Assembly (NCBI RefSeq): GCF_017353515.1
Contig: NZ_JAFMPY010000036.1
Span: 1 to 34,304 of the forward strand
Source of the DNA: Jiella sonneratiae
GTDB taxonomy: Bacteria; Pseudomonadota; Alphaproteobacteria; Rhizobiales; Rhizobiaceae
Direction: 5' to 3'
Length of the DNA: 34,304 bases
The position numbers were made by a program, and so were the translations under genes. Below the pieces are notes generated by a model. It was not told the origin of the DNA, made no database searches, and saw only the letters and a program-made list of their open reading frames with translations. Below are positions 1-34,304 of the stretch, in pieces (position 1 is the first letter of the stretch; each line of letters starts with the position of its first letter).

Positions 1-127
1 GCGCGCGGTTCCGCTCGCTTGCCCAACCCTGGGCCGATACCGATGACAGCACCGGCCGCCTCATGCTGGCCATCCTTGGCGGTCTCGCCGACGTTGAGCG
101 GGATCTGATCAAGACCCGCACGGCCGA
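1..127. repeat. Terminal direct repeat (copy 1) marking a circular molecule
   Basis: These 127 bases are identical to the last 127 bases of the window (34178-34304). Joining the two ends over this repeat gives an uninterrupted resolvase reading frame, so the repeat is best read as assembly overlap on a circular plasmid and not as a biological duplication. The length 127 equals a common maximum k-mer size of de Bruijn assemblers (inference). Confidence 0.93.
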
Positions 128-5618: not shown

Positions 5619-5927
5619 ATGCCTCTAATCAATAAAAATATAATATCGCAAATGTCCCCGACGAAGCGACTTGCATTGCTTTACAGCGAAATAATTAAAA
5701 CCGGTGTTCGTTCCGATCAAGGTCACTATGTCGTGTCATGCACCGACGGATTAGCGTCTTGTCTCAAATTAATCGGCGACGGCCTTGGCGTTCAATCTGA
5801 GTTTGTCAAGCCGCCCGCATATTGTGAAGACGGCAGTTACGGTCCCGTCGTTATCGTCACGCCCGAGCAACTAAAGAAGGCCGAAGATTTATCTTATAAT
5901 GCGGAATCTCTAAACAAATTGTTATAA
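5619..5927 (+). CDS. Small hypothetical protein convergent with the DUF4062 gene
   Basis: The protein has 102 residues from the ATG at 5619 (a TTG at 5607 is possible). It begins MPLINKNIISQMSPTKRLAL and has no recognised domain. It shows a mixed alpha/beta pattern, with a central HYVVSCTDGLASCLKLIGDG and an EDGSYGPVVIVTPEQL stretch that could be a small globular fold. The gene is A+T-rich compared with the backbone, like its neighbour. Its 3' end overlaps the 3' end of the DUF4062 gene by 34 bases on the opposite strand, so transcription of one would produce antisense RNA to the other. It may be a partner or immunity component of the DUF4062 protein, but this is inferred from position only. 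Confidence 0.6.
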   Translation: MPLINKNIISQMSPTKRLALLYSEIIKTGVRSDQGHYVVSCTDGLASCLKLIGDGLGVQSEFVKPPAYCEDGSYGPVVIVTPEQLKKAEDLSYNAESLNKLL

Positions 5928-7345
5928 GCCACATATGTCCATATCTCCCCTGATTCAAACGGTTCTATTATAAATCCCCTTTTTTTCAAAAACTCATGAA
6001 AGTTTTTGCATTTATCCTCTAGGTATCCACCGCTCACAAAACACACCGGCTGTGACAACAGTATCTCTTCCCACATTTTTGAATCAAATACTCGATAGTA
6101 AGCATCACTGCGCGTAGGGCGAAAATTGATTTTTCCCGATGTCTGCAGGATAATTTTATTCGTTTTCGTTCTAAATATTGCGTGCTTAAATAAAACGTTT
6201 TTATACTCTAATATATAAGGGGCAAATCCGTCATTTGCATCAAGACCACCAAACGCAATAATCGCTATCCCAAGAGATTCTTGCTGCTCTAAGCATTCCT
6301 TGATTTTATTTGTAACCAAATTTATGCCGTCATCTGCGTCTTTCCTCAACGCATTACTATCATAATCTAACTTATTTACATCTGGTACGTCTTTTAAAAC
6401 ACCAATTGTTTTCCCATACTGAGGTGATATAGGAGGTTTTGGAAGATAAGTGACATCTATCACAGCAGGTAGTTGATATCGACGCAAGTCGAATATGATT
6501 TTCGCGAAAACTCCGTTCAAATATATTTTGATGATCTCTGGCACCTTACGCAAGGCATCGTCCGTTTCGAGAATATGCAATAACTCTATTGCCAGAAAAT
6601 CACAACTAGAACCTGCTTCAATAAATATATTATGTTTTTTATCAATAATTAGTCTTGTCTTAAATCGATCGAAGAATACTTTAGCAATTGCTGCTTTTAT
6701 CTCGGAATCTATATTAGATCTTTTGGTTAGTGCTTCAAACGCCTTTAGTCTTTGAAGTATATGTGTAAAAGTCCTACTTTTCGATTGTTCGGGATCGAGG
6801 TGACCGAGAGTATTGATTTCATCAAAACGACTGGAATGAACCCATCCCCCCTTCGGAACATCCCGAAGGGCGTCGATTTCACTTTGCAAGCCCTGCTGGA
6901 CAACAACTGCGAGACTTTCGGGCTTTGCCATGCTAAAATGACGGTAGAAGGTTCCTTGAGTTTTAATTCTTGTGATAAAGCGGGTAAGTCGTTTGTCTGT
7001 GTTTGATTTTTCAAAGTCTTCGTCATCTGCAATAAAGGCAATACATTTAACCCCGGCGGCTTGTGCTATATTGTATTCGTACTCTGTAAAACTAATCCTG
7101 CCGCACTCTTTGACAACTCCGCCGATGAATGTACCAATTATTAGTACCAAAATGTCTGATTTTCGAACCTTGTCGGCAATATATGAAACATTTTTTTGAG
7201 AACTTGCTGCAAATGTCTCCATATTAATGGGGATATTATTTTGCCCATTAATAACCTCAACTACGGCCTGTCGATGAGCAGCTAGATCTCGGGTAGTTGA
7301 GCTGACGAAGATTTGATAAAGTCGGCCGTCAATCTGAGTTTTCAT
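5894..7345 (-). CDS. DUF4062 domain protein with a large C-terminal region
   Basis: The protein has 483 residues. The N-terminal 120 match DUF4062: YQIFVSSTTRDLAAHRQAV, then NINMETFAA-like PINMETFAASSQKNVSY, SDILVLIIGTFIGG, and ISFTEYEYNIAQAAGVKCIA. DUF4062 belongs to a TIR/SLOG-like group of Rossmannoid domains that recur in conflict and immune-like proteins. The C-terminal 250 residues are unassigned; short pieces (NIFIEAGSSCDFLAIELL, then FKHAIFRTKTNKIILQTSGK) resemble the sugar-phosphate sensor domain of DeoR regulators, but no HTH precedes them. The gene is strikingly A+T-rich for this plasmid, uses different codons and lies next to a broken IS, all signs of recent transfer. A role in anti-phage defence or nucleotide sensing is a hypothesis. 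Confidence 0.8.
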   Translation of the reverse strand: MKTQIDGRLYQIFVSSTTRDLAAHRQAVVEVINGQNNIPINMETFAASSQKNVSYIADKVRKSDILVLIIGTFIGGVVKECGRISFTEYEYNIAQAAGVKCIAFIADDEDFEKSNTDKRLTRFITRIKTQGTFYRHFSMAKPESLAVVVQQGLQSEIDALRDVPKGGWVHSSRFDEINTLGHLDPEQSKSRTFTHILQRLKAFEALTKRSNIDSEIKAAIAKVFFDRFKTRLIIDKKHNIFIEAGSSCDFLAIELLHILETDDALRKVPEIIKIYLNGVFAKIIFDLRRYQLPAVIDVTYLPKPPISPQYGKTIGVLKDVPDVNKLDYDSNALRKDADDGINLVTNKIKECLEQQESLGIAIIAFGGLDANDGFAPYILEYKNVLFKHAIFRTKTNKIILQTSGKINFRPTRSDAYYRVFDSKMWEEILLSQPVCFVSGGYLEDKCKNFHEFLKKRGFIIEPFESGEIWTYVAYNNLFRDSAL

Positions 7346-8063: not shown

Positions 8064-9041
8064 GTGGCCATCTACGTCCTCTCGGCCAAGATCGTCGCCC
8101 GATCCAAAGGCCAATCCGCCGTCGCCGCTGCCGCCTATCGCGCCGGGGCATGCCTCCACGACGACCGTGTCGACGCCACCTTCGACTACACCCGCCGGGG
8201 CGGTGTCGTCCATGCCGAGATCCTGCTTCCCAAGGGCGCCCCTGACCGCCTCGCCGATCGCCAGACTCTCTGGAACGAGGTCGAGGCCACCGAGAAGCGC
8301 AAGGACGCCCAACTCGCCCGCGAGTTGATGTTCGCTGTCCCCCATGAGCTCGAGACCCTCGAGGAGCAGCGCGCCCTCGTCGTCGCCTTCGTCACCGACC
8401 AGTTCGTCCGCCGCGGCATGATCGCCGACATCGCTCTCCACATGGGCCGCACCGGCAACGGCAAGCCCGCCATCCACGCTCATGTCATGCTGACCATGCG
8501 CGCCGTCGGCCCGGAGGGGTTCGGCAAGAAGGTCCGCGAGTGGAACGCAGCCTTCGCCACTAAAGAGGCCGAGACCTTCACTGTCGGCACCAACACGCTG
8601 GCCGACTGGCGCAAGGCCTGGGCCAAGCATGCCAACGCCTCGCTCGCCGAGGCCGGCTCCGACGCCCGTATCGACCACCGCACCCTCGCGGCCCAGCGCG
8701 AGGAGGCCATGGCTGAGGGGGATTTCGCCAAGGCCGAGGCGCTCAATCGCGAGCCGCAGCCAAAACTCGGCGCGGCCAAATGGATGGCTGCCCGCGCCGC
8801 CGATCTGCGCGATGCCGTCGCCAAGTCCAAACTGATGGAAACGATCGACGCCTGGCGCCGCTGGGTTGGCGTCCGCCATCGCAACGGCGTGCGCGAGCGT
8901 GCCCGGGCCCAGGCCGAGCAGACCAGCCCCGCCGCCACCGGTGCCGAGCTGGTCGCCCGCATCGTCCGTCACGGGCCCCGCATGGGCCTCAAACCTCTCG
9001 GGCCGGGATGGCCCGACCCCGAGCATGAGGCCGGATCATGA
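8064..9041 (+). CDS. mobA: MOBQ-type (MobA/MobL) relaxase
   Basis: The protein has 325 residues from a GTG start at 8064, chosen because the family N-terminus (AIYVLSAKIVARSKGQSAVA) begins right there and a GGGAG site precedes it. It nicks one strand at oriT and is carried into the recipient covalently attached by a Tyr. Visible motifs are the AAAAYRAGACL region (residues about 20-30) and the metal-binding HAHVMLTMRA (about 138-147). The protein stops after the relaxase domain, with no helicase or primase part, unlike TraA of Ti plasmids. Its TGA overlaps the next ATG by four bases. It heads an eight-gene transfer operon. Confidence 0.93.
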   Translation: MAIYVLSAKIVARSKGQSAVAAAAYRAGACLHDDRVDATFDYTRRGGVVHAEILLPKGAPDRLADRQTLWNEVEATEKRKDAQLARELMFAVPHELETLEEQRALVVAFVTDQFVRRGMIADIALHMGRTGNGKPAIHAHVMLTMRAVGPEGFGKKVREWNAAFATKEAETFTVGTNTLADWRKAWAKHANASLAEAGSDARIDHRTLAAQREEAMAEGDFAKAEALNREPQPKLGAAKWMAARAADLRDAVAKSKLMETIDAWRRWVGVRHRNGVRERARAQAEQTSPAATGAELVARIVRHGPRMGLKPLGPGWPDPEHEAGS

Positions 9042-9493
9042 CGATGCGAGAGGATTTCAGCTTCACGAATCGATATGCGGGCGGCAGCCCCCCGAGCTTC
9101 GAGGAGAGCGAGGCCGTCAACGACCCGAAGCATCGGAGAAGCTATGCCGCCACCGAGATGATCCGCGCGGCAAACCGGCCGGGGTCCTGGATGTTTACCT
9201 GCCGCTGGCGCGAGCGCCAGGCCGGAGGCCTGCCGCAGCGCCGGGTCAAGACGCTGCCGTATTTTCATCTGGGCGAGATCGACACCCTCGGAACTGAGCA
9301 CCTCTCCCTCATCACCACCTACAGCCTCATCCACATGGAAGGCGAAGGGCTCGATACGATTGCCGGCGAGCTCGCCCGCCAGCGCGTCGAGGCCCTGCAG
9401 GAATTCGACCCCGATCTCTGGGACAAGCCCGCCCCCGGCGCTGCCGTCATCGCCCGCATGTGGGTCGAGCCCCTCGGCAAGCTCGCCACCTGA
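9038..9493 (+). CDS. Hypothetical protein of the mobilisation operon
   Basis: The protein has 151 residues, begins MTMREDFSFTNRYAGG, and overlaps the relaxase stop by four bases, so it is translationally coupled. It has no signal peptide or membrane segment. A Trp/Arg-rich patch (SWMFTCRWRERQ) and an acidic C-terminal half (LDTIAGELARQRVEALQEFD) are the visible features. I do not recognise a family. Position right after the relaxase suggests a relaxosome accessory or a factor docking the relaxase to the coupling protein, by analogy with other operons; this is inference. Confidence 0.8.
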   Translation: MTMREDFSFTNRYAGGSPPSFEESEAVNDPKHRRSYAATEMIRAANRPGSWMFTCRWRERQAGGLPQRRVKTLPYFHLGEIDTLGTEHLSLITTYSLIHMEGEGLDTIAGELARQRVEALQEFDPDLWDKPAPGAAVIARMWVEPLGKLAT

Positions 9494-9547
9494 CGCCGCC
9501 CTAAACAACACTGTCGATCCCCGATTTTCCGCGCCGAGGACAAGCCC

Positions 9548-9868
9548 ATGGCCGACGACAAGAGCAAGGACGCCGCTGCCGAGCCCCAGGAGAAGAGCCG
9601 ACTGCGCCGGGGCCTCGAACAGGCCTTCGATGTCGCCTGGGAGCTCGGCGCCGAGGCGACCCACGACATCCGCCACAAGGTGGTCGAGGAGCCCTGGTTC
9701 GGCCGCGCCGTCACCGAGGCGCAGGAAACCAATATCTGGTCGACCCTGCCGGCGAAGCCCGACGCCGACGCAGCATCCGTCCGGAAGCCGAAACAGCCGA
9801 AGGCAGAAGCCGACAGGTCTCCCAATAGCGTGCCCGACGGGGCGCCCGATCTCGAACCCGAACTGTAG
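9548..9868 (+). CDS. Small hydrophilic hypothetical protein
   Basis: The protein has 106 residues and is strongly charged. The first 65 residues (RLRRGLEQAFDVAWELGAEA, then HDIRHKVVEEPWFGRAV) look helical. The last 40 are Pro/Asp/Glu/Lys-rich and probably disordered. There is no signal or membrane segment. The ATG follows a GAGGACAAGCCC ribosome site. It lies between the relaxase-linked gene and the membrane components, so it may be a cytosolic accessory of the transfer complex; no function can be named. Confidence 0.75.
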   Translation: MADDKSKDAAAEPQEKSRLRRGLEQAFDVAWELGAEATHDIRHKVVEEPWFGRAVTEAQETNIWSTLPAKPDADAASVRKPKQPKAEADRSPNSVPDGAPDLEPEL

Positions 9869-9883
9869 CCGGAGATTGTCGTC

Positions 9884-10528
9884 ATGCCGGCTCCGCGTCA
9901 GCATGAACGCGCATCTCCACCGCGGGCGGGGCGCTCGCCCGCCGAGCGGCCGCCGTCCCGCTCCCGCTGGCGCGGTCTGGCGGGAACCGCGCTCGTTCTC
10001 GGCTGCATCGCCCTCGGCGCGGCTTTCGCCGGCGCCACGCCCGACAAGCTTCTCGCCGCGCTTCAGACCGGTCTCGGCCTTGCCGGCGGCGATCCGGGTC
10101 TCAGCGCTCAGGCGGCACAGGCCAGGACGGACGCCTTTGACGCCGCCCGGCCTTTCGCCCTTGCCCCGCTGTCGGCCGCCGAAGCGGCTGCCGCCCTGCC
10201 ATACCTCGGCCTGTCCGCCGGAGCGGCCGCGGCTCTCAAGACCGATCTCGACAAGGGCGCCGTGCGCCTCGTCGCTCTGACCCTCTGGGACGATCAGGAG
10301 GAAGACGGCGATGTCGTGCGCGTCGAAACCGCCGGCTACGGCCGCGATATTCCCCTCGCCGCCGCCCCGACGCGCATCGTCCTGCCGGTCGACGGCGACA
10401 ATTCCATCAGGGTCAGGGGCACGGCGGATGGCGGCGGCGGCATCACCATGGCGATCGCGGTGAACGGCAAGGCCGTGCCGCTGCCGCCGCTCGCCGTCGG
10501 CGAAACCGTCTCGCTTCCCATTGGCTGA
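9884..10528 (+). CDS. Bitopic membrane protein of the mobilisation operon
   Basis: The protein has 214 residues. An Arg/Pro-rich cytosolic tail of about 30 residues is followed by one hydrophobic segment (LAGTALVLGCIALGAAFAGA, about 31-50), with the rest predicted outside the membrane. The outer part has an Ala-rich helical section, then a beta-rich end (ETAGYGRDIPLAAAPTRIVL, then IRVRGTADGGGGITMAIAVN) that could form a sandwich. It is not a recognised VirB component. Spacing to the next gene is two bases, so the two membrane proteins are probably made together. Confidence 0.8.
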   Translation: MPAPRQHERASPPRAGRSPAERPPSRSRWRGLAGTALVLGCIALGAAFAGATPDKLLAALQTGLGLAGGDPGLSAQAAQARTDAFDAARPFALAPLSAAEAAAALPYLGLSAGAAAALKTDLDKGAVRLVALTLWDDQEEDGDVVRVETAGYGRDIPLAAAPTRIVLPVDGDNSIRVRGTADGGGGITMAIAVNGKAVPLPPLAVGETVSLPIG

Positions 10529-10530
10529 CC

Positions 10531-11727
10531 ATGCCGGATTTCCTGCCCTCCGGCTTGATCGCACGCGCCGTCCTCGGACTGCTCGCCGGCTATTTCCTGT
10601 TGCATCTTCTGACGCAGGCAAGCTGGATTTTGCTTCTCACAGCATTCCTCCTGTGGTTGATGGTGACGGGCTGCGTGGTCCATGTCGCACGTACCCCCGG
10701 ACGGGCTCCTTCCGCAAAAAGGCATTGGCTCATGGATATCCTCGACCGGCTCACCAATCGGGAAGCGCTGCGGGACGCCCTGAAGACCGCGCCGCCCTCC
10801 GGGCCGCTGTCGATCGAGATCGATGCGCCGGCGCTCGCCGACCGGCTCAAGGGCAAAGTGTTCGGCCAGGACGCGGTGTGCGAGGACGTCGCCCGGGAGA
10901 TCAAGCGCCGGGCCGCGCGCACCGGACGTTCGGTGCCGCTCGGCATCTTCTTCTTCGTCGGTCCGCCGGCGACCGGCAAGACCCACTTCGCCAAGGTGCT
11001 CGCGGCGAGCCTGCCGAGCGAATTCACGCTGCTCTTCGTCGAAATGGCCCAGCATAGCGAGCCCCATACCGCCGCCGGTCTCTTCGGCCAGGCGCCTGGC
11101 TATGTCGGCTCCGACCGCTATGGCACCCTCACCGGCGCCTTGCGCAACAACTCCCGCACCGTCGTCGTCCTCGACGAATTCGAGAAGGCGCATCGCGAGG
11201 TTCAGGAAAAATTCCTCTCTGCCTGGAACGACGGCTTCCTCACCGAGAGCTCAACGGGCGAGAAGATCGCCACGGTCAACGCCATCTTCATCGTCACCAG
11301 CAACGCCGCAGAGCGCGAGGTCGGCGAACTCGCCAAAAGCTACGCCGGCGACCGCGAAGCGCTGTCGCAGGCCTGCAAGCGGGCGCTCGCCAGCCATTTC
11401 TCGGGGCCGGTCCTGTCGCGCGTCGATCGGGTCTTTCCCTTCCTGCCGCTCGGCGAGGAGGATCTCGCCCGGCTGATCGCCGGGCAGATCGAGCGCAACG
11501 CCGCCGAATTCGAGCTGGCGATCGCCCCCGGCGGCCTCGACTTCCGCATTCTCGTCGACACCATCCGCGACGCCAGGCGCACCGATGCCGATGCCCGCGA
11601 GATCAGCCGCATCGTCAGCCGCGCGATCGACGACGAGCTGATGGCCTTCAAGGAGCGCCATCGCGGCAAGACGGCGATCCGCCTCGGCCTGACCGAAGCC
11701 GGCGCCATCGCCGTCATGCCGGCCTGA
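10531..11727 (+). CDS. Membrane-anchored AAA+ ATPase related to the ClpA/ClpB second ring
   Basis: The protein has 398 residues. Two N-terminal hydrophobic segments (about 9-28 and 31-50) anchor it. The rest is one AAA+ module of the ClpA/B type: VFGQDAVCEDVAREI entry, Walker A in FFVGPPATGKTHFAK (about 141-155), pore-loop GYVG in QAPGYVGSDRYG (about 187-198), Walker B in TVVVLDEFEKAH (about 210-221), sensor 1 in FIVTSN, and an Arg-containing SRVDRVFPFLPL. Clp proteins with a GYVG loop thread unfolded polypeptides through their pore. No ClpP-docking loop was seen and no protease is encoded nearby. In this operon a role in unfolding the relaxase for transfer, or in remodelling the transfer complex, is plausible but inferred. 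Confidence 0.92.
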   Translation: MPDFLPSGLIARAVLGLLAGYFLLHLLTQASWILLLTAFLLWLMVTGCVVHVARTPGRAPSAKRHWLMDILDRLTNREALRDALKTAPPSGPLSIEIDAPALADRLKGKVFGQDAVCEDVAREIKRRAARTGRSVPLGIFFFVGPPATGKTHFAKVLAASLPSEFTLLFVEMAQHSEPHTAAGLFGQAPGYVGSDRYGTLTGALRNNSRTVVVLDEFEKAHREVQEKFLSAWNDGFLTESSTGEKIATVNAIFIVTSNAAEREVGELAKSYAGDREALSQACKRALASHFSGPVLSRVDRVFPFLPLGEEDLARLIAGQIERNAAEFELAIAPGGLDFRILVDTIRDARRTDADAREISRIVSRAIDDELMAFKERHRGKTAIRLGLTEAGAIAVMPA

Positions 11728-11730
11728 GCC

Positions 11731-12234
11731 ATGGCGGGCGCTGCGGCCTATGGTTCGGCGGTCTTCGATCTCTGGCGGAGAAGCCGTCCGTTTCGCCGCC
11801 TGGGCGTCGGTGCCGTCGTGGCGACGATCCTCGTCTTGTTGTTTCCGCCGCGCTGGCCGCAGGCAAGCCCGTCCCTGGGACAAGCGAGCTATGTCTCGAC
11901 CACTTCGCAGCCGGGCTTGCCTCCACCCATTCCGACCGGTCCGACCGTCGGAACCGCCTCCGCCCTGCCCCGTCCTGCTCGGCTCGTCCCGCCGCTCCGG
12001 CCGTCCCTGATCGACGAGGCGACAACGTCGAACGCGAACCCCGGCATCGAGACCCGGGCCGGCGCCCAAAGACCGGCGCCGGCAGCTCTCTCGCAAGCCG
12101 AAACCCTGACGCCGGCCCGCCCGCCGCTCGGCATGCCGGGTACCCTCTCCGCGGCGCCGCGCGGCGATCCGCCGCCCGTGGCGAACGGATCGTCGATCCT
12201 TGTACCCTCTCGCCCTGCTCTTTCAGATCCGTGA
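11731..12234 (+). CDS. Proline-rich bitopic protein
   Basis: The protein has 167 residues. A short basic start is followed by one hydrophobic segment (LGVGAVVATILVLLFPP, about 24-40) and then a long Pro/Ala/Ser-rich outer part (PGLPPPIPTGPTVGTA and similar), likely extended. That layout is like the periplasm-spanning stalks of VirB10 or TonB, though no sequence match to either is claimed. It starts three bases after the AAA+ stop and ends on a TGA that overlaps the next possible start. Confidence 0.75.
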   Translation: MAGAAAYGSAVFDLWRRSRPFRRLGVGAVVATILVLLFPPRWPQASPSLGQASYVSTTSQPGLPPPIPTGPTVGTASALPRPARLVPPLRPSLIDEATTSNANPGIETRAGAQRPAPAALSQAETLTPARPPLGMPGTLSAAPRGDPPPVANGSSILVPSRPALSDP

Positions 12235-12242
12235 GGTTCTCG

Positions 12243-13007
12243 ATGCGACTGCCGCGCTGGTTCCTTGTCTCCGCCGGAGCGACGGTGGCCCTGTGGTTCT
12301 CCGCCCCGGTCTTTGCAGAGGTCGACCTGCAGACGCAGATCGACGCCCTCAGAACCGATCTCGACCGTCTCAAGACCGAGGTCGAAGCCTTGAAGGATGG
12401 CAAGAGTCCATCTTCTGGCAACACGGCGGCCGCACCCGCCATCGCCAATCCCGCCCCAGCCGCGCCGCCGCTCGAACCTGGCTGCATGCTGCAGGGATCG
12501 GTCAAATACTGCACCGGCTGGACGGTCAGCGTGTTCAATGTCGATCCACGCGGTGGTGCCGCTGCGCTCGTCGGCCGTTTCGTTCCTGAAAACGCCGCCC
12601 GCATCGGCATCGAGGATCACAAGGCCATCTTCGCAGCCAACTCGAACGATCTCGAATATCGCGGCGAAGGCTTCTTCAATGCGCGCGAGACCGGCGCCTA
12701 CAGCTTCCTTCTCGACCTGACACCCGGCTATCGCGACAAGTGCCGCGCCAGCCTGTCGTTCGCCGGCACCGATCTCGTTTCCGCCGACGATCGCAGGCCC
12801 AACGGGTCCGCCACCAGCACGCTGCAGCCAGGGCTCTACCCAATCGGCTTTCGCCTCGCCTGCTCGATCTATCCCTACAAGCGGCAGAACCGATCCGACC
12901 CGTCGACGGTCCTGTTACGGGTCCTGACCCCGAAAAGCGGCGCGCCGCGGCCGCTCCGGGCAGCAGACAGCCCCGCCGACAGCGACGTCATCCGCGAGGC
13001 GCCCTGA
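12243..13007 (+). CDS. Exported coiled-coil protein of the mobilisation operon
   Basis: The protein has 254 residues from the ATG at 12243; a GTG at 12231 would add four residues. A signal peptide is clear (WFLVSAGATVALWFSAPVFA, cleavage after VFA). Next comes a heptad-like coiled coil (LQTQIDALRTDLDRLKTEVE), a Pro/Ala linker, and a 150-residue domain with four Cys (EPGCMLQGSVKYCTGW, then RDKCRASL and RLACSIYP) that could form two disulfides in the periplasm. The beta-rich stretch with RETGAYSFLLDLTPGY resembles a carbohydrate- or ligand-binding sandwich only in a general way. The family is not recognised. It lies directly before the coupling protein. Confidence 0.82.
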   Translation: MRLPRWFLVSAGATVALWFSAPVFAEVDLQTQIDALRTDLDRLKTEVEALKDGKSPSSGNTAAAPAIANPAPAAPPLEPGCMLQGSVKYCTGWTVSVFNVDPRGGAAALVGRFVPENAARIGIEDHKAIFAANSNDLEYRGEGFFNARETGAYSFLLDLTPGYRDKCRASLSFAGTDLVSADDRRPNGSATSTLQPGLYPIGFRLACSIYPYKRQNRSDPSTVLLRVLTPKSGAPRPLRAADSPADSDVIREAP

Positions 13008-13012
13008 CCGCG

Positions 13013-14860
13013 ATGATCGGCCTCGGCCTGCAGCTCGCAAAGTTCCTCGTCTGGCTTTGGCCGCTGTGGCTCTGGCTTCTCGCCTGGAACTGGGGAGGCG
13101 AACTAGTGCTCGGGACCGTCTTCTACCGCACTGGCCAGGTGGCCGCCTCGGCTGCCCTGCTCGTCCCGGCGACGCTGCTCGCCGCACGCGGCATCGGCCC
13201 GCCCTGGATCGCGCTTCTGGCCGCGATCGGCGCCATCGCAGCGGGGTATTCCGGGCTGGCCTCGGAATGGCAACGCGTTGGCCCCTTCGCCATGGCGCCC
13301 GGCCAGAACATCGCGGCGGTCCTTCCCTATCTCGACTATCCGCTGTTGGCGGTCTCCGTCGCGGCCATCCTCGGACCCTCCCTCGTCCCGGCGCTGCGCT
13401 GGCTCGCCTATCGCCGGAGCGCGACCGCGAAGGGCACGCTCCTCGGCAGCGCCCGCTGGATGAGCCTCCGTGAGGCAAGGCAGGTGTTCCAGAATGGCGA
13501 TCTCGTCATCGGCGAAGCCTATGACGCGGTACGCGATCCAAGGGCCGGAGGCAGCGCGCCGCTGCTGCGACACCGGCCGAACGGTCATCTCCTGACCGTC
13601 GCCGGATCGGGCAGCGGCAAGACCACCAGCATTGCCATTCCGAACTGCCTCTCCTGGCCGGAAACCCTCGTCGCCCACGATCCGAAGGGCGAGCTGGCGC
13701 GGCTCTGCGGTCCGAGCCGGAGCAAACGGGGCCGCTCGGTCTTCGTCCTCGATCCGCTCGATCCGCAAACCGACAGCCTCAACGTCCTGTCCTGGCTCGA
13801 TCCGACCTCCGAACGACTGATCGACGATGCCCGCGCCATGGTCAGCTGGCTCACCGACGGCAAGCCGCCCGAGGGCGAGAACAAGATCTTCGAGGAGAAT
13901 GCCCGCGAGCTGATCATGACGCTCCTGCTGGTCGTCGTCTGCGACGATCGCTGGCCGGCAAGCGAGCGCACGCTCGAGCGGCTGCGGCGGTATTTCTATC
14001 AGGAGGATTTGCGCGGCATGCTCGCTGATCTCGCCGCGCATGGCGATCATCTGGCCTTCGGCGTGCCCGCCGCCAATGCCCGCGTCTTCCAGGGTTTTGG
14101 CGAGCGGCTCTGGGGCAGCGTGCTCGGCAGCGCCAAGGACCTCCTCAACTGCATCAGCGGCCCGCCCATGGCGCGCCTCGTCTCGGGCGGCGGCGGCAAG
14201 GTGTTGACCCGCGACGATCTCGCCGGCGGCAAGACGGATGTCTTCATCTCGATCCCCGTCAAGGACCTCGACGCCAATCCGGCGATCGCCCGGCTGCTGC
14301 TCGGTACCCTTCTCAACGCCGCCTACGAGATCGGCCAGGGCAATGCCGGCCAGAGAAATGCTGGAAAGGCCCGAACCCTCTTCCTCCTCGATGAGATGCC
14401 GCGGCTTCGCTACATGGGCCTGCTCGAGACGGCCCGCGACGTCGGCCGCGGCCATGGCCTCACCCTCTGGGCGATCGTCCAGGACCTCGGCCAGCTCGAG
14501 AAGCACTATCAGAAGGAAGGTCTCGTCAGCTGGCTGGAAAACAGCGAGGTGAAGAGCTTCTTCGGCATCGGCGAATATTCCACCGCCGAACGTCTGTCGC
14601 AGACGATCGGCGAGACGACGATCACCAGCCGGTCGCGCTCCTTCGAGCACCCGTTCGAACTTGTCTCCGGAAAGTCCGACAGCCCCACCGCCCGCGCGCT
14701 GATCACGCCGGACGAGATCATGCGCATGGCGGTCGACGCGCGCGGCCTGCCCGACGAGCAGATCGTGTTGTTACGCAATCAGGCGCCGCTGCGCTGCGGA
14801 CTCGCCAAATACTACCGGCGCAAGGAGTTCGCCGGCGAGACCGGCGACACAAAGGGGTAG
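13013..14860 (+). CDS. traG: Type IV coupling protein (VirD4/TraG family)
   Basis: The protein has 615 residues from the ATG at 13013; the open frame runs farther upstream, but only over the preceding gene. Four hydrophobic segments occupy the first 130 residues (for example FLVWLWPLWLWLLAWNW). Then come the TraG signatures: LLGSARWMSLREAR, Walker A in VAGSGSGKTTSIAIPN (about 196-211), VAHDPKGELARLCG, and Walker B in TLFLLDEMPRLRYMG (about 455-469), with FFGIGEYSTAERLS near the end. This hexameric inner-membrane ATPase links the relaxase-DNA complex to a secretion channel. It is the last gene of the transfer operon. No VirB channel genes follow, so it must work with a channel encoded elsewhere. 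Confidence 0.95.
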   Translation: MIGLGLQLAKFLVWLWPLWLWLLAWNWGGELVLGTVFYRTGQVAASAALLVPATLLAARGIGPPWIALLAAIGAIAAGYSGLASEWQRVGPFAMAPGQNIAAVLPYLDYPLLAVSVAAILGPSLVPALRWLAYRRSATAKGTLLGSARWMSLREARQVFQNGDLVIGEAYDAVRDPRAGGSAPLLRHRPNGHLLTVAGSGSGKTTSIAIPNCLSWPETLVAHDPKGELARLCGPSRSKRGRSVFVLDPLDPQTDSLNVLSWLDPTSERLIDDARAMVSWLTDGKPPEGENKIFEENARELIMTLLLVVVCDDRWPASERTLERLRRYFYQEDLRGMLADLAAHGDHLAFGVPAANARVFQGFGERLWGSVLGSAKDLLNCISGPPMARLVSGGGGKVLTRDDLAGGKTDVFISIPVKDLDANPAIARLLLGTLLNAAYEIGQGNAGQRNAGKARTLFLLDEMPRLRYMGLLETARDVGRGHGLTLWAIVQDLGQLEKHYQKEGLVSWLENSEVKSFFGIGEYSTAERLSQTIGETTITSRSRSFEHPFELVSGKSDSPTARALITPDEIMRMAVDARGLPDEQIVLLRNQAPLRCGLAKYYRRKEFAGETGDTKG

Positions 14861-15093: not shown

Positions 15094-15399
15094 TCAGCGT
15101 GCCGGTGACGAAGGCTGCTCGAAATGGATGCGAAGCTTGGTCCCGGTCGCGTCGGCATACTTTCTGAGGGTACTGGTCGAGGGCATCCTGCGGCCGCTTT
15201 CGAGCCGGGCGACAGCGGCTTGAGTGGTGCCCATCTTTTCCGCCACCTGCTCTTGCGTCATCTGCGCCGTCACCCGTGCGCCGATGAGCGCCTGGGCGAT
15301 CGCAAATTCTTCCTCAAGCGCATCGTAGGCTTCGACGAATTTCGGGTCTTTAAACCACTCCTTCGCCACTTCCTCGACTGGAATATATTTGCGCGTCAT
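15094..15399 (-). CDS. higA: HigA-like antitoxin (XRE family)
   Basis: The protein has 101 residues. An HTH lies at about 43-95: ALIGARVTAQMTQEQVAEKM, then GTTQAAVARLESGRRMPSTS, then LRKYADATGTKLRI. The N-terminal arm (PVEEVAKEWFKDPKFVEAYD) fits the toxin-neutralising extension seen in this group. Its ATG overlaps the toxin TGA (ATGA). The order toxin first, antitoxin second is typical of HigBA-type pairs. It should neutralise the toxin and repress the operon, probably through the palindrome at 15762-15779. Confidence 0.9.
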   Translation of the reverse strand: MTRKYIPVEEVAKEWFKDPKFVEAYDALEEEFAIAQALIGARVTAQMTQEQVAEKMGTTQAAVARLESGRRMPSTSTLRKYADATGTKLRIHFEQPSSPAR

Positions 15400-15725
15400 A
15401 TGACCTCTTTTGCCCTTCGCAAGGCGGTTTCGATTTCGCGGCGCGGGGTTTTCTGCGTCTTCTTCGAGAACACATGCACCACCACGACGCGGCGGCCGGA
15501 CGCAGCGACATACGCAGCCCGCGCTATGCCATCTTTGCCCTTCATCCGCATTTCCCAGACCGGCCCTTCAAGGTGCTTCACATAAGGCTCGCGCATCTTA
15601 TGAAGCCCCTCGCTCTCGATCAGCCGCACAATGCGCAGAAAGCTCGCCATGATGTCCTGAGACATCGCCTCCAGGTCTGCCTGCACGCCTGCATCGAAAA
15701 ACTGAACCTGCCATTTCACCGCCAT
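15396..15725 (-). CDS. higB: HigB/RelE-type toxin (phage Gp49-like, DUF891)
   Basis: The protein has 109 residues from the ATG at 15725 (a TTG six codons upstream is less likely). The RelE-like fold is recognisable from VQFFDAGVQADLEAM at the start, LHKMREPYVKHLEGPVWEMR in the middle, the basic IARAAYVAASGRRVVVVHVF strand pair, and KKTQKTPRREIETALRRA at the end. Family members are ribosome-dependent mRNA interferases. With the overlapping antitoxin gene it forms a type II addiction module that favours plasmid retention. A TATATT box lies only a few bases before the start, so the mRNA may have a very short leader. Confidence 0.9.
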   Translation of the reverse strand: MAVKWQVQFFDAGVQADLEAMSQDIMASFLRIVRLIESEGLHKMREPYVKHLEGPVWEMRMKGKDGIARAAYVAASGRRVVVVHVFSKKTQKTPRREIETALRRAKEVI

Positions 15726-15761
15726 AATATACCATTTTTGCAATGTTTGTCGAGAAATATC

Positions 15762-33903: not shown

Positions 33904-34304
33904 ATGGACAAAAGTCGCGCCCCCATCCGCTCCTTCGGCTATGCCCGGGTTTCCACCGTCGGCCAGACCCTTGAGGCCCAGCTCGAGGAGCTGCAAGCCG
34001 CCGGATGCACGATCGTCTTCCGCGAAAAGGTTTCCGGCGCCAAGGCCGACCGCAAAGAGCTGATGAAGCTCCTTAGCACCCTCGGTCCTGGCGATGAGCT
34101 GGTGGTGACCCGCATCGATCGCCTGGCTCGATCGACCTTCGACATGTTCGCCATCGTCAAGCGCATCGTCGACGCCGGCGCGCGGTTCCGCTCGCTTGCC
34201 CAACCCTGGGCCGATACCGATGACAGCACCGGCCGCCTCATGCTGGCCATCCTTGGCGGTCTCGCCGACGTTGAGCGGGATCTGATCAAGACCCGCACGG
34301 CCGA
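33904..34304 (+). CDS. Serine recombinase (resolvase/invertase family), 5' part
   Basis: This is the start of the resolvase that continues at position 1 after circular closure (stop at 296; 189 residues in all). The catalytic domain begins SFGYARVSTVGQTLEAQLEE with the Ser nucleophile in YARVST, followed by IVFREKVSGAKADRKELMKL, DELVVTRIDRLARSTFDMF and DDSTGRLMLAILGGLADVER, all standard for small serine recombinases. It is the first gene after a res-like inverted repeat. Likely role: resolving plasmid multimers. Confidence 0.95.
   Translation, partial: MDKSRAPIRSFGYARVSTVGQTLEAQLEELQAAGCTIVFREKVSGAKADRKELMKLLSTLGPGDELVVTRIDRLARSTFDMFAIVKRIVDAGARFRSLAQPWADTDDSTGRLMLAILGGLADVERDLIKTRTA
34178..34304. 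repeat. Terminal direct repeat (copy 2)
   Basis: Identical to bases 1-127; the redundant end of a circular contig. Confidence 0.93.

Follow-up and report, generated by a model that had tools for sequence, protein, structure and literature searches.

A 34,304-nucleotide stretch of Jiella sonneratiae DNA (assembly GCF_017353515.1, contig NZ_JAFMPY010000036.1, positions 1 to 34,304; hereafter the window), which most likely represents a 34,177-bp circular plasmid, carries an operon of eight plus-strand open reading frames (ORFs; p1 to p8, positions 8064-14860), with a MobQ relaxase gene first and the gene for a TraG/VirD4 coupling protein (type IV coupling protein, T4CP) last. Between them lie the genes for a predicted membrane-anchored AAA+ ATPase related to the second ring of Clp proteins (p5) and for three predicted envelope proteins (p4, p6 and p7). 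With the arguments about evenly balanced, we favour the reading that these four proteins may form an AAA+-based remodelling module of the inner membrane that mobilisable plasmids have recruited and that works beside their T4CP in mobilisation.

Results

The AAA+ block recurs beside a relaxase and a coupling protein

The genes p4-AAA-p6-p7 occur in the same order, beside T4CP and relaxase genes, in four diverged elements, namely the window, two Methylorubrum elements (L044 and L159) and one from Microvirga splendida (L045). Across these elements, the AAA proteins share 29-36% and the T4CPs 26-62% identity, and kinship between the window and L044/L045 is clear for p4 (E 3e-23 to 9e-19) and for the AAA protein (E 3e-65 to 2e-42). 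The T4CP gene follows the block on the same strand in the window and in L159 (in the latter behind an extra gene), and precedes it on the same strand in L045 and on the opposite strand in L044. The relaxase is of the MobQ type in three of the elements and a 2046-residue MobA/MobL-helicase protein in L045. At a fifth T4CP-linked locus, L187, the order is T4CP-AAA-p6, with the AAA ORF overlapping the T4CP gene by 4 bases if read from its first TTG, or following it after an 11-base gap if read from its first ATG. Altogether 20 AAA loci were compared, near-copies such as the Methylorubrum plasmid pB146-2 (L036, L038) being left out. Component-profile scores are high by construction for the window, L035, L037, L044, L045 and L156-L159, which are contained in the profiles, and independent for L178-L187.

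The persistence of p4-AAA-p6-p7 alongside T4CP and relaxase genes in four elements that have diverged makes it plausible that its products form a sub-complex associated with transfer. Since the T4CP is encoded nearby on mobilisable plasmids, the AAA module most likely serves transfer there. In the mechanism that we propose, an AAA hexamer on the cytoplasmic face would be coupled by p4 and p6 to periplasmic p7, and the ring would thread or remodel a protein without degrading it. Acting beside the coupling protein during mobilisation, the module might either unfold the relaxase, a candidate client, or remodel the coupling protein or an envelope contact, while the DNA channel would be supplied by a helper element. 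We consider unlikely a more specific arrangement, a dedicated inner-membrane unfoldase station in which the AAA ring, tied via p4/p6 to p7, would strip the relaxase and hand it to the T4CP, perhaps forming a VirB-free inner-membrane route.

Table 1. Operon genes, motifs of p5 and contig ends in the window
Feature	Position	Strand	Basis
p1, MobQ-type relaxase, 325 aa	8064..9041	+	MobA_MobL and MobQ models; AYRAG at residue 24, HxH at 138
p2, 151 aa, no known family	9038..9493	+	without BLASTP hits at the related loci that were compared
p3, 106 aa, no known family	9548..9868	+	without BLASTP hits at the related loci that were compared
p4, predicted N-in/C-out bitopic protein	9884..10528	+	transmembrane segment 31-49; homologues in ten loci
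p5, membrane-anchored single-ring Clp-D2-type AAA+ ATPase, 398 aa	10531..11727	+	AAA_2 E 1.8e-27; own branch
p5 Walker A GPPATGKT	10960..10983	+	motif in alignment
p5 pore-loop motif GYVG (residues 193-196)	11107..11118	+	motif in alignment
p6, predicted bitopic protein	11731..12234	+	LWRRSRPFRR anchor, one transmembrane segment, Pro-rich periplasmic tail
p7, predicted exported protein	12231..13007	+	helix 30-55, then beta domain resembling PA14 folds
p8, TraG/VirD4 coupling protein, 618 aa from ATG 13004	13004..14860	+	T4SS-DNA_transf E 2.2e-78
terminal repeat	1..127	.	same as final 127 bases of window
terminal repeat	34178..34304	.	repeats bases 1-127

p5 belongs to a separate branch of single-ring Clp relatives

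Judged from sequence, p5 and its homologues are relatives of Clp proteins that have a single ring, a membrane anchor and bitopic partners and that form a branch of their own. Its best NCBIfam matches fall in the second ring of ClpV, ClpA and ClpB, and its best solved relatives in profile searches are the second rings of ClpE, ClpC, ClpB and ClpA (top PDB match, E 2.1e-60). A tree built from 15 members of the AAA family and 16 Clp D2 rings sets the family apart on one side of a branch with support 100/100. Hydrophobic segments are predicted in p5 at residues 9-27 and 32-50, and every family member has one or two such segments before the AAA core, in L192 within an over-long frame. The residues that we take to be those of Walker A and B, the arginine finger and the sensor-2 arginine are invariant in nine aligned sequences, and 19 of 20 members have Tyr or Phe in the pore loop. 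A tripeptide of the form [LIVM]G[FLI], which we assume to represent the IGL/IGF-type ClpP-docking motif at its presumed loop position in ClpA, was found in none of 19 AAA loop segments.

As for known classes, the class I Clp/HSP100 proteins (ClpA/B/C/V) have two AAA rings, while p5 has a single AAA stretch and misses the equivalog cut-offs by far. Assignment to the FtsH-type proteases is not supported either, p5 having no match to a Pfam protease family and matching FtsH models at just E 0.02. The Pfam Torsin model matches p5 at E 0.03, with 14.9 bits against a cut-off of 27. A function in anti-phage defence was rejected, as the PADLOC matches are to generic AAA proteins (best E 4.5e-20 for p5) and weaker than the Clp matches. 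Relatives of the AAA protein occur in at least 443 stretches of viral contigs, the best 80 of which show up to 37% identity over the core; this likeness is no greater than that of ordinary Clp proteins, and a viral origin was discarded.

Profile scores for the AAA protein are two-peaked: in the order, with 397 genomes searched, five places reach 426-590 bits and nothing else exceeds 188. The protein is rare, being present in 5 of these 397 genomes and in 2 of 385 genomes of the class (both counts include the J. sonneratiae genome). It was found at 13 places in 11 of 397 genomes of the family of Methylorubrum thiocyanatum.

Predicted envelope partners and small genes

None of p2, p3, p4, p6 and p7 yielded anything above curated Pfam or NCBIfam cut-offs (sub-threshold rows, best E 0.018), nor a PHROG or PADLOC match at E 0.01. 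The same Pfam, NCBIfam and PHROG results led us to reject a VirB identity for p4, p6 and p7, whose profile searches found no VirB family, in keeping with the view formed from the bare sequence that none of them matches a VirB component.

p4 has a conserved C-terminal domain (LWDD...EDGD...DGGGGIT), and its homologues are found at L044, L045, L159, L157, L158, L183-L186 and L192, so that 11 of the 20 AAA loci, the window included, carry it; seven of these 11 are without a T4CP. A single-sequence search of the class returned p4 in 4 of 385 genomes at E 1e-3, that is, the J. sonneratiae genome and three weak matches (E 5e-5 to 6e-4) lying mostly outside the conserved C-terminal part. This search is insensitive, since it missed the p4 of genome G434 (L192). 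One viral contig, L190, contains p4, with no match there to the other component profiles. On the Rhodovulum plasmid pRGUI01 (L043 14053-15282), the C-terminal domain of p4 stands behind another exported part in a longer protein; no transfer gene is annotated in 30 kb.

An anchor pattern of the p6 type was met in 12 of 3067 ORFs in 19 loci, each time in the gene directly after AAA, the pattern having been derived from the same loci in which it was counted. The p6 proteins of L044 and L159 do not fit it, and those of L187 and the later-fetched L192 show it by eye. Beyond the membrane helix, this third component varies by lineage, with Pro-rich, Sel1-repeat or other sequences; short p6 stubs are present in L035 and L178-L181. 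p7 has an N-terminal hydrophobic segment, a modelled helix (residues 30-55), a predicted coiled coil and four Cys (85, 94, 171 and 211). Its beta domain gives a weak fold match to PA14, and matches to CopC copper-binding proteins are also weak (best E 0.006). At Microvirga-type loci, a small conserved gene lies closely 5' of the AAA ORF or overlaps it (L035 11382-11759, L178 8885-9277, L180 10549-10935).

Relaxase, coupling protein and replicon

The gene content marks the window as a mobilisable plasmid that encodes both a MobQ relaxase and a coupling protein of its own; no VirB channel was found for it. p1 matches Pfam MobA_MobL with E 1.2e-61 and scores 246.5 bits against NCBIfam MobQ (cut-off 200), which places it among the MOBQ relaxases. 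The start of p8 was chosen at the ATG at 13004, the mechanical ORF opening at 12740; its closest plasmid relatives among the matches listed are Ti-type TraG proteins (33-34% identity). In the host genome (completeness 98.23%), this T4CP and this relaxase are the sole matches to the T4CP and MobA/MobL models, relaxases in genomes having been sought with PF03389 only. A channel search that covered two families, VirB4 (PF03135) and VirB10/TrbI (PF03743), gave no match to either in the host genome, so that neither the VirB4 ATPase nor the VirB10 expected of a VirB/Trb type IV secretion system (T4SS) was found.

Much of what the original prediction had read from the letters of this stretch stands: the Pfam and NCBIfam matches confirm the MOBQ relaxase and the VirD4/TraG coupling protein at the operon ends, the ORF positions and spacing agree with eight same-strand genes joined mostly by overlaps or gaps of a few bases, and the lack of VirB genes now extends to the host genome for the two families searched. 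The two N-terminal membrane segments, ClpA/B second-ring signature and GYVG loop ascribed to the AAA+ protein were borne out by AAA_2, the predicted segments and the position of the motif, and the descriptions of a bitopic protein, a proline-rich bitopic protein and an exported coiled-coil protein with four Cys match what is predicted for p4, p6 and p7.

From p1 to p8, the intergenic spacings are -4, 54, 15, 2, 3, -4 and -4 bases, so that p4 to the T4CP gene are spaced by +2, +3, -4 and -4. GC content is 61% for the replicon and 0.76-0.85 at third codon positions across the eight genes. A scan for promoters (0 against 0.8 expected) and terminators (3 against 4.2 expected) gave no signal. Plasmid records matching the operon DNA number 281, none spanning 80% of it; among the 40 matches listed, only the start of the relaxase gene is covered.

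The ends of the window are identical over exactly 127 bp, very probably because the contig is circular. Genes for ParA- and ParB-like proteins, a resolvase, an integrase-like protein and a helix-turn-helix (HTH)/Gp49 pair fit its plasmid nature. The HTH and Gp49-like proteins, encoded on the minus strand directly 3' of the operon (15094-15743), are a likely toxin-antitoxin pair of the HigBA type. A DUF4062 protein is encoded 5' of the operon on the opposite strand (5894-7345, minus).

Related Methylorubrum plasmids

M. thiocyanatum harbours both the L044 and the L159 element. In Methylorubrum sp. B1-46, plasmid pB146-2 is a close copy of the L044 element and pB146-1 a sister of the L159 element. 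pB146-2 is a complete circular plasmid of 38 kb with no annotated VirB genes; none is annotated in 50,000 of the 52,774 bases of pB146-1 either. pB146-1 keeps p6, p7, T4CP and MobQ, its p7 being identical to that of L159. PLSDB types both pB146-2 (L038) and pB146-1 (L191) as non-mobilizable, and each has an annotated mobQ. At L038 12677-13000, a predicted APH(4) resistance call, possibly an artefact, covers a small hypothetical gene adjoining mobQ. In pB146-1, annotated TIR, caspase-family and second TIR genes stand in a row near parA (L191 22314-24192).

Strength of the link to transfer and alternative explanations

T4CP genes are few, with 7 matches in 7 genomes, four beside an AAA gene and three elsewhere in G578. 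By rough arithmetic, a random gene would lie within 10 kb of a T4CP gene in about 0.4% of cases, compared with 4 of the 19 AAA loci other than the window. This estimate overstates the link because AAA and T4CP genes both favour mobile DNA. In a rooted tree, the window, L044 and L159 fall in one sub-branch (support 85/95); a second one (support 85/98) holds L045, L187 and Microvirga loci reduced to AAA and a p6 stub. One recruitment followed by losses and two recruitments are therefore both possible. In an AAA tree without outgroup, the five T4CP-linked members form no single clade and require 3 changes, a number as low being reached in 27 of 500 shuffles.

Several observations weigh against a role in mobilisation. 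No T4CP is present in the stretch read at 15 of the 20 AAA loci, the exceptions being the window, L044, L159, L045 and L187, and p4-AAA also occurs away from transfer genes, paired with Sel1-repeat or other proteins. The loci lie largely on mobile DNA, which in itself raises co-occurrence. Kinship of p7 between the window and the other elements is weak (E 4e-5 and 1.8e-4), and that of p6 is based on position and build. The L044 AAA protein has DHQG in place of GYVG, as well as the longest branch. Between the two Methylorubrum plasmids, the AAA proteins are 31% identical, compared with 62% for the T4CPs, and neither AAA nor p4 was found in pB146-1, where an IS21 element lies directly upstream of p6, the place of AAA in L159. 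Finally, no oriT was recognised: upstream of the window relaxase gene there is no inverted repeat by the script criteria, and no 10-mer is common to three or more loci. The transfer sub-complex of the original prediction is thus plausible from the four diverged elements and L187, while a role in transfer only is opposed by the 15 loci. The conservation of AAA with relaxase and T4CP on which it hinged holds in part, p4-AAA-p6-p7 being kept beside both in four elements and p4-AAA pairs occurring elsewhere, G787 included.

The same distribution lends substance to a competing explanation, which we regard as a minority view of some weight: p4, AAA and the anchored third component could be a general envelope module of plasmids and chromosomes, with a function in fitness, surface exclusion or stress and outside DNA transfer, whose task would be to remodel or monitor proteins that are exported or reside in the inner membrane. 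p4-AAA occurs without a T4CP at seven loci (L157, L158, L183-L186 and L192) and AAA without p4 or T4CP at eight more (L035, L037, L156 and L178-L182); the contigs bearing L183 and L182 measure 4.4 and 4.5 Mb, and the G787 genome has p4-AAA with no match to the T4CP, MobA/MobL, TrbI or VirB4 models. The lineage-specific part of the third component beyond the membrane helix looks as if the client differed. This explanation sits less well with the tight, ordered T4CP linkage at five loci, four of which (all but the window) were found without a T4CP query, and with the presence of T4CP-linked members in two AAA sub-branches, at moderate support. At two of the unlinked loci, p4-AAA stands with a Sel1-repeat bitopic protein (L158 7494-10910, L157 8316-11730), and a large RTX-repeat protein is encoded further on in L158.

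Other explanations appear far less probable. That T4CP, AAA ring, p4, p6 and p7 form a reduced, VirB-free envelope path for relaxase-DNA, which we hold to be very unlikely, would agree with the two complete Methylorubrum plasmids without annotated VirB genes and with the genomes carrying T4CP-linked AAA, where VirB4 was not found in 4 of 4 (G000, G834, G835 and G1090) and TrbI not in 3 of 3 tested. Among the results listed for genomes with unlinked AAA, five have VirB4 (G578, G849, G1035, G1050 and G1118) and two do not (G690 and G787), a post hoc comparison in the same direction to which we give no weight. The 4-of-4 absence is weak, however, since 210 of the 298 genomes examined from the M. 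thiocyanatum family likewise gave no VirB4 match, and we rejected it as proof of a VirB-free channel; the match in the other 88 points to a possible helper channel there. Moreover, nothing in the block could be recognised as an outer-membrane protein, a VirB6-like channel or a lytic enzyme, and an own T4CP combined with a borrowed channel is already known from CloDF13 (PMC7434980). It is similarly improbable that the AAA part belongs to a decaying conjugation remnant and has no present function. The altered pore loop and long branch of L044, the AAA gene not found in pB146-1 and the p6 stubs would suit such decay, but the window has intact AAA motifs and eight open frames, with genes that overlap or nearly do so. 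Least credible is a plasmid-borne, ClpK-like chaperone for stress tolerance: ClpK rows are many among the plasmid matches, and the D2 region is matched by each of the NCBIfam models for ClpK, ClpA, ClpB and ClpV, yet the ClpK score is far under its cut-off (118 against 1900 bits), for which reason ClpK-type heat tolerance was rejected, and p5 has a single ring, a membrane anchor, a separate branch and envelope partners. We thus retain, at the strength given at the outset, the reading of a remodelling module that mobilisable plasmids may have recruited to work beside their T4CP.

Significance and comparison with known systems

A relaxase must be unfolded before it can go through the conjugation channel. 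According to PMC5826034, it is unclear which enzyme unfolds T4SS substrates, and a T4SS nomenclature review (PMC12857230) contains no word beginning with Clp. The few plasmids in which a Clp-type ring is linked with a relaxase and a T4CP allow this question to be put to a direct genetic test. Independently of this, the AAA protein defines a separate branch of Clp relatives in which a single, membrane-anchored ring goes with bitopic partners. Among the papers listed in a literature search, none describes the AAA block or the separate AAA branch in its title or start of abstract.

The p5 family shares with the second ring of Clp/HSP100 proteins (ClpE, ClpC, ClpB, ClpA and ClpV D2) the AAA_2 core, Walker motifs, arginine finger and, usually, an aromatic pore loop; it differs in its one ring, N-terminal membrane anchor, lack of a ClpP-type tripeptide, usual position beside genes for bitopic proteins, and separate branch. 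The weak likeness of the p7 beta domain is to PA14-domain proteins, lectin-like domains of adhesins and glycosidases. The transfer proteins resemble TraA and TraG of Ti plasmids in the TraA_Ti relaxase domain of p1 (below the model cut-off) and in the TraG-like p8, but p1 is without the long part of TraA, no Trb channel was found and the AAA block is extra. Among mobilisable plasmids that bring a T4CP but borrow the channel (PMC7434980), CloDF13 has a relaxase of the MOBC type (PMC12857230). The window is like CloDF13 in combining a relaxase and its own T4CP with no VirB channel. To our knowledge, CloDF13 has no AAA+ envelope block, and the window differs from it both in its MobQ relaxase and in the added AAA-p4-p6-p7 set.

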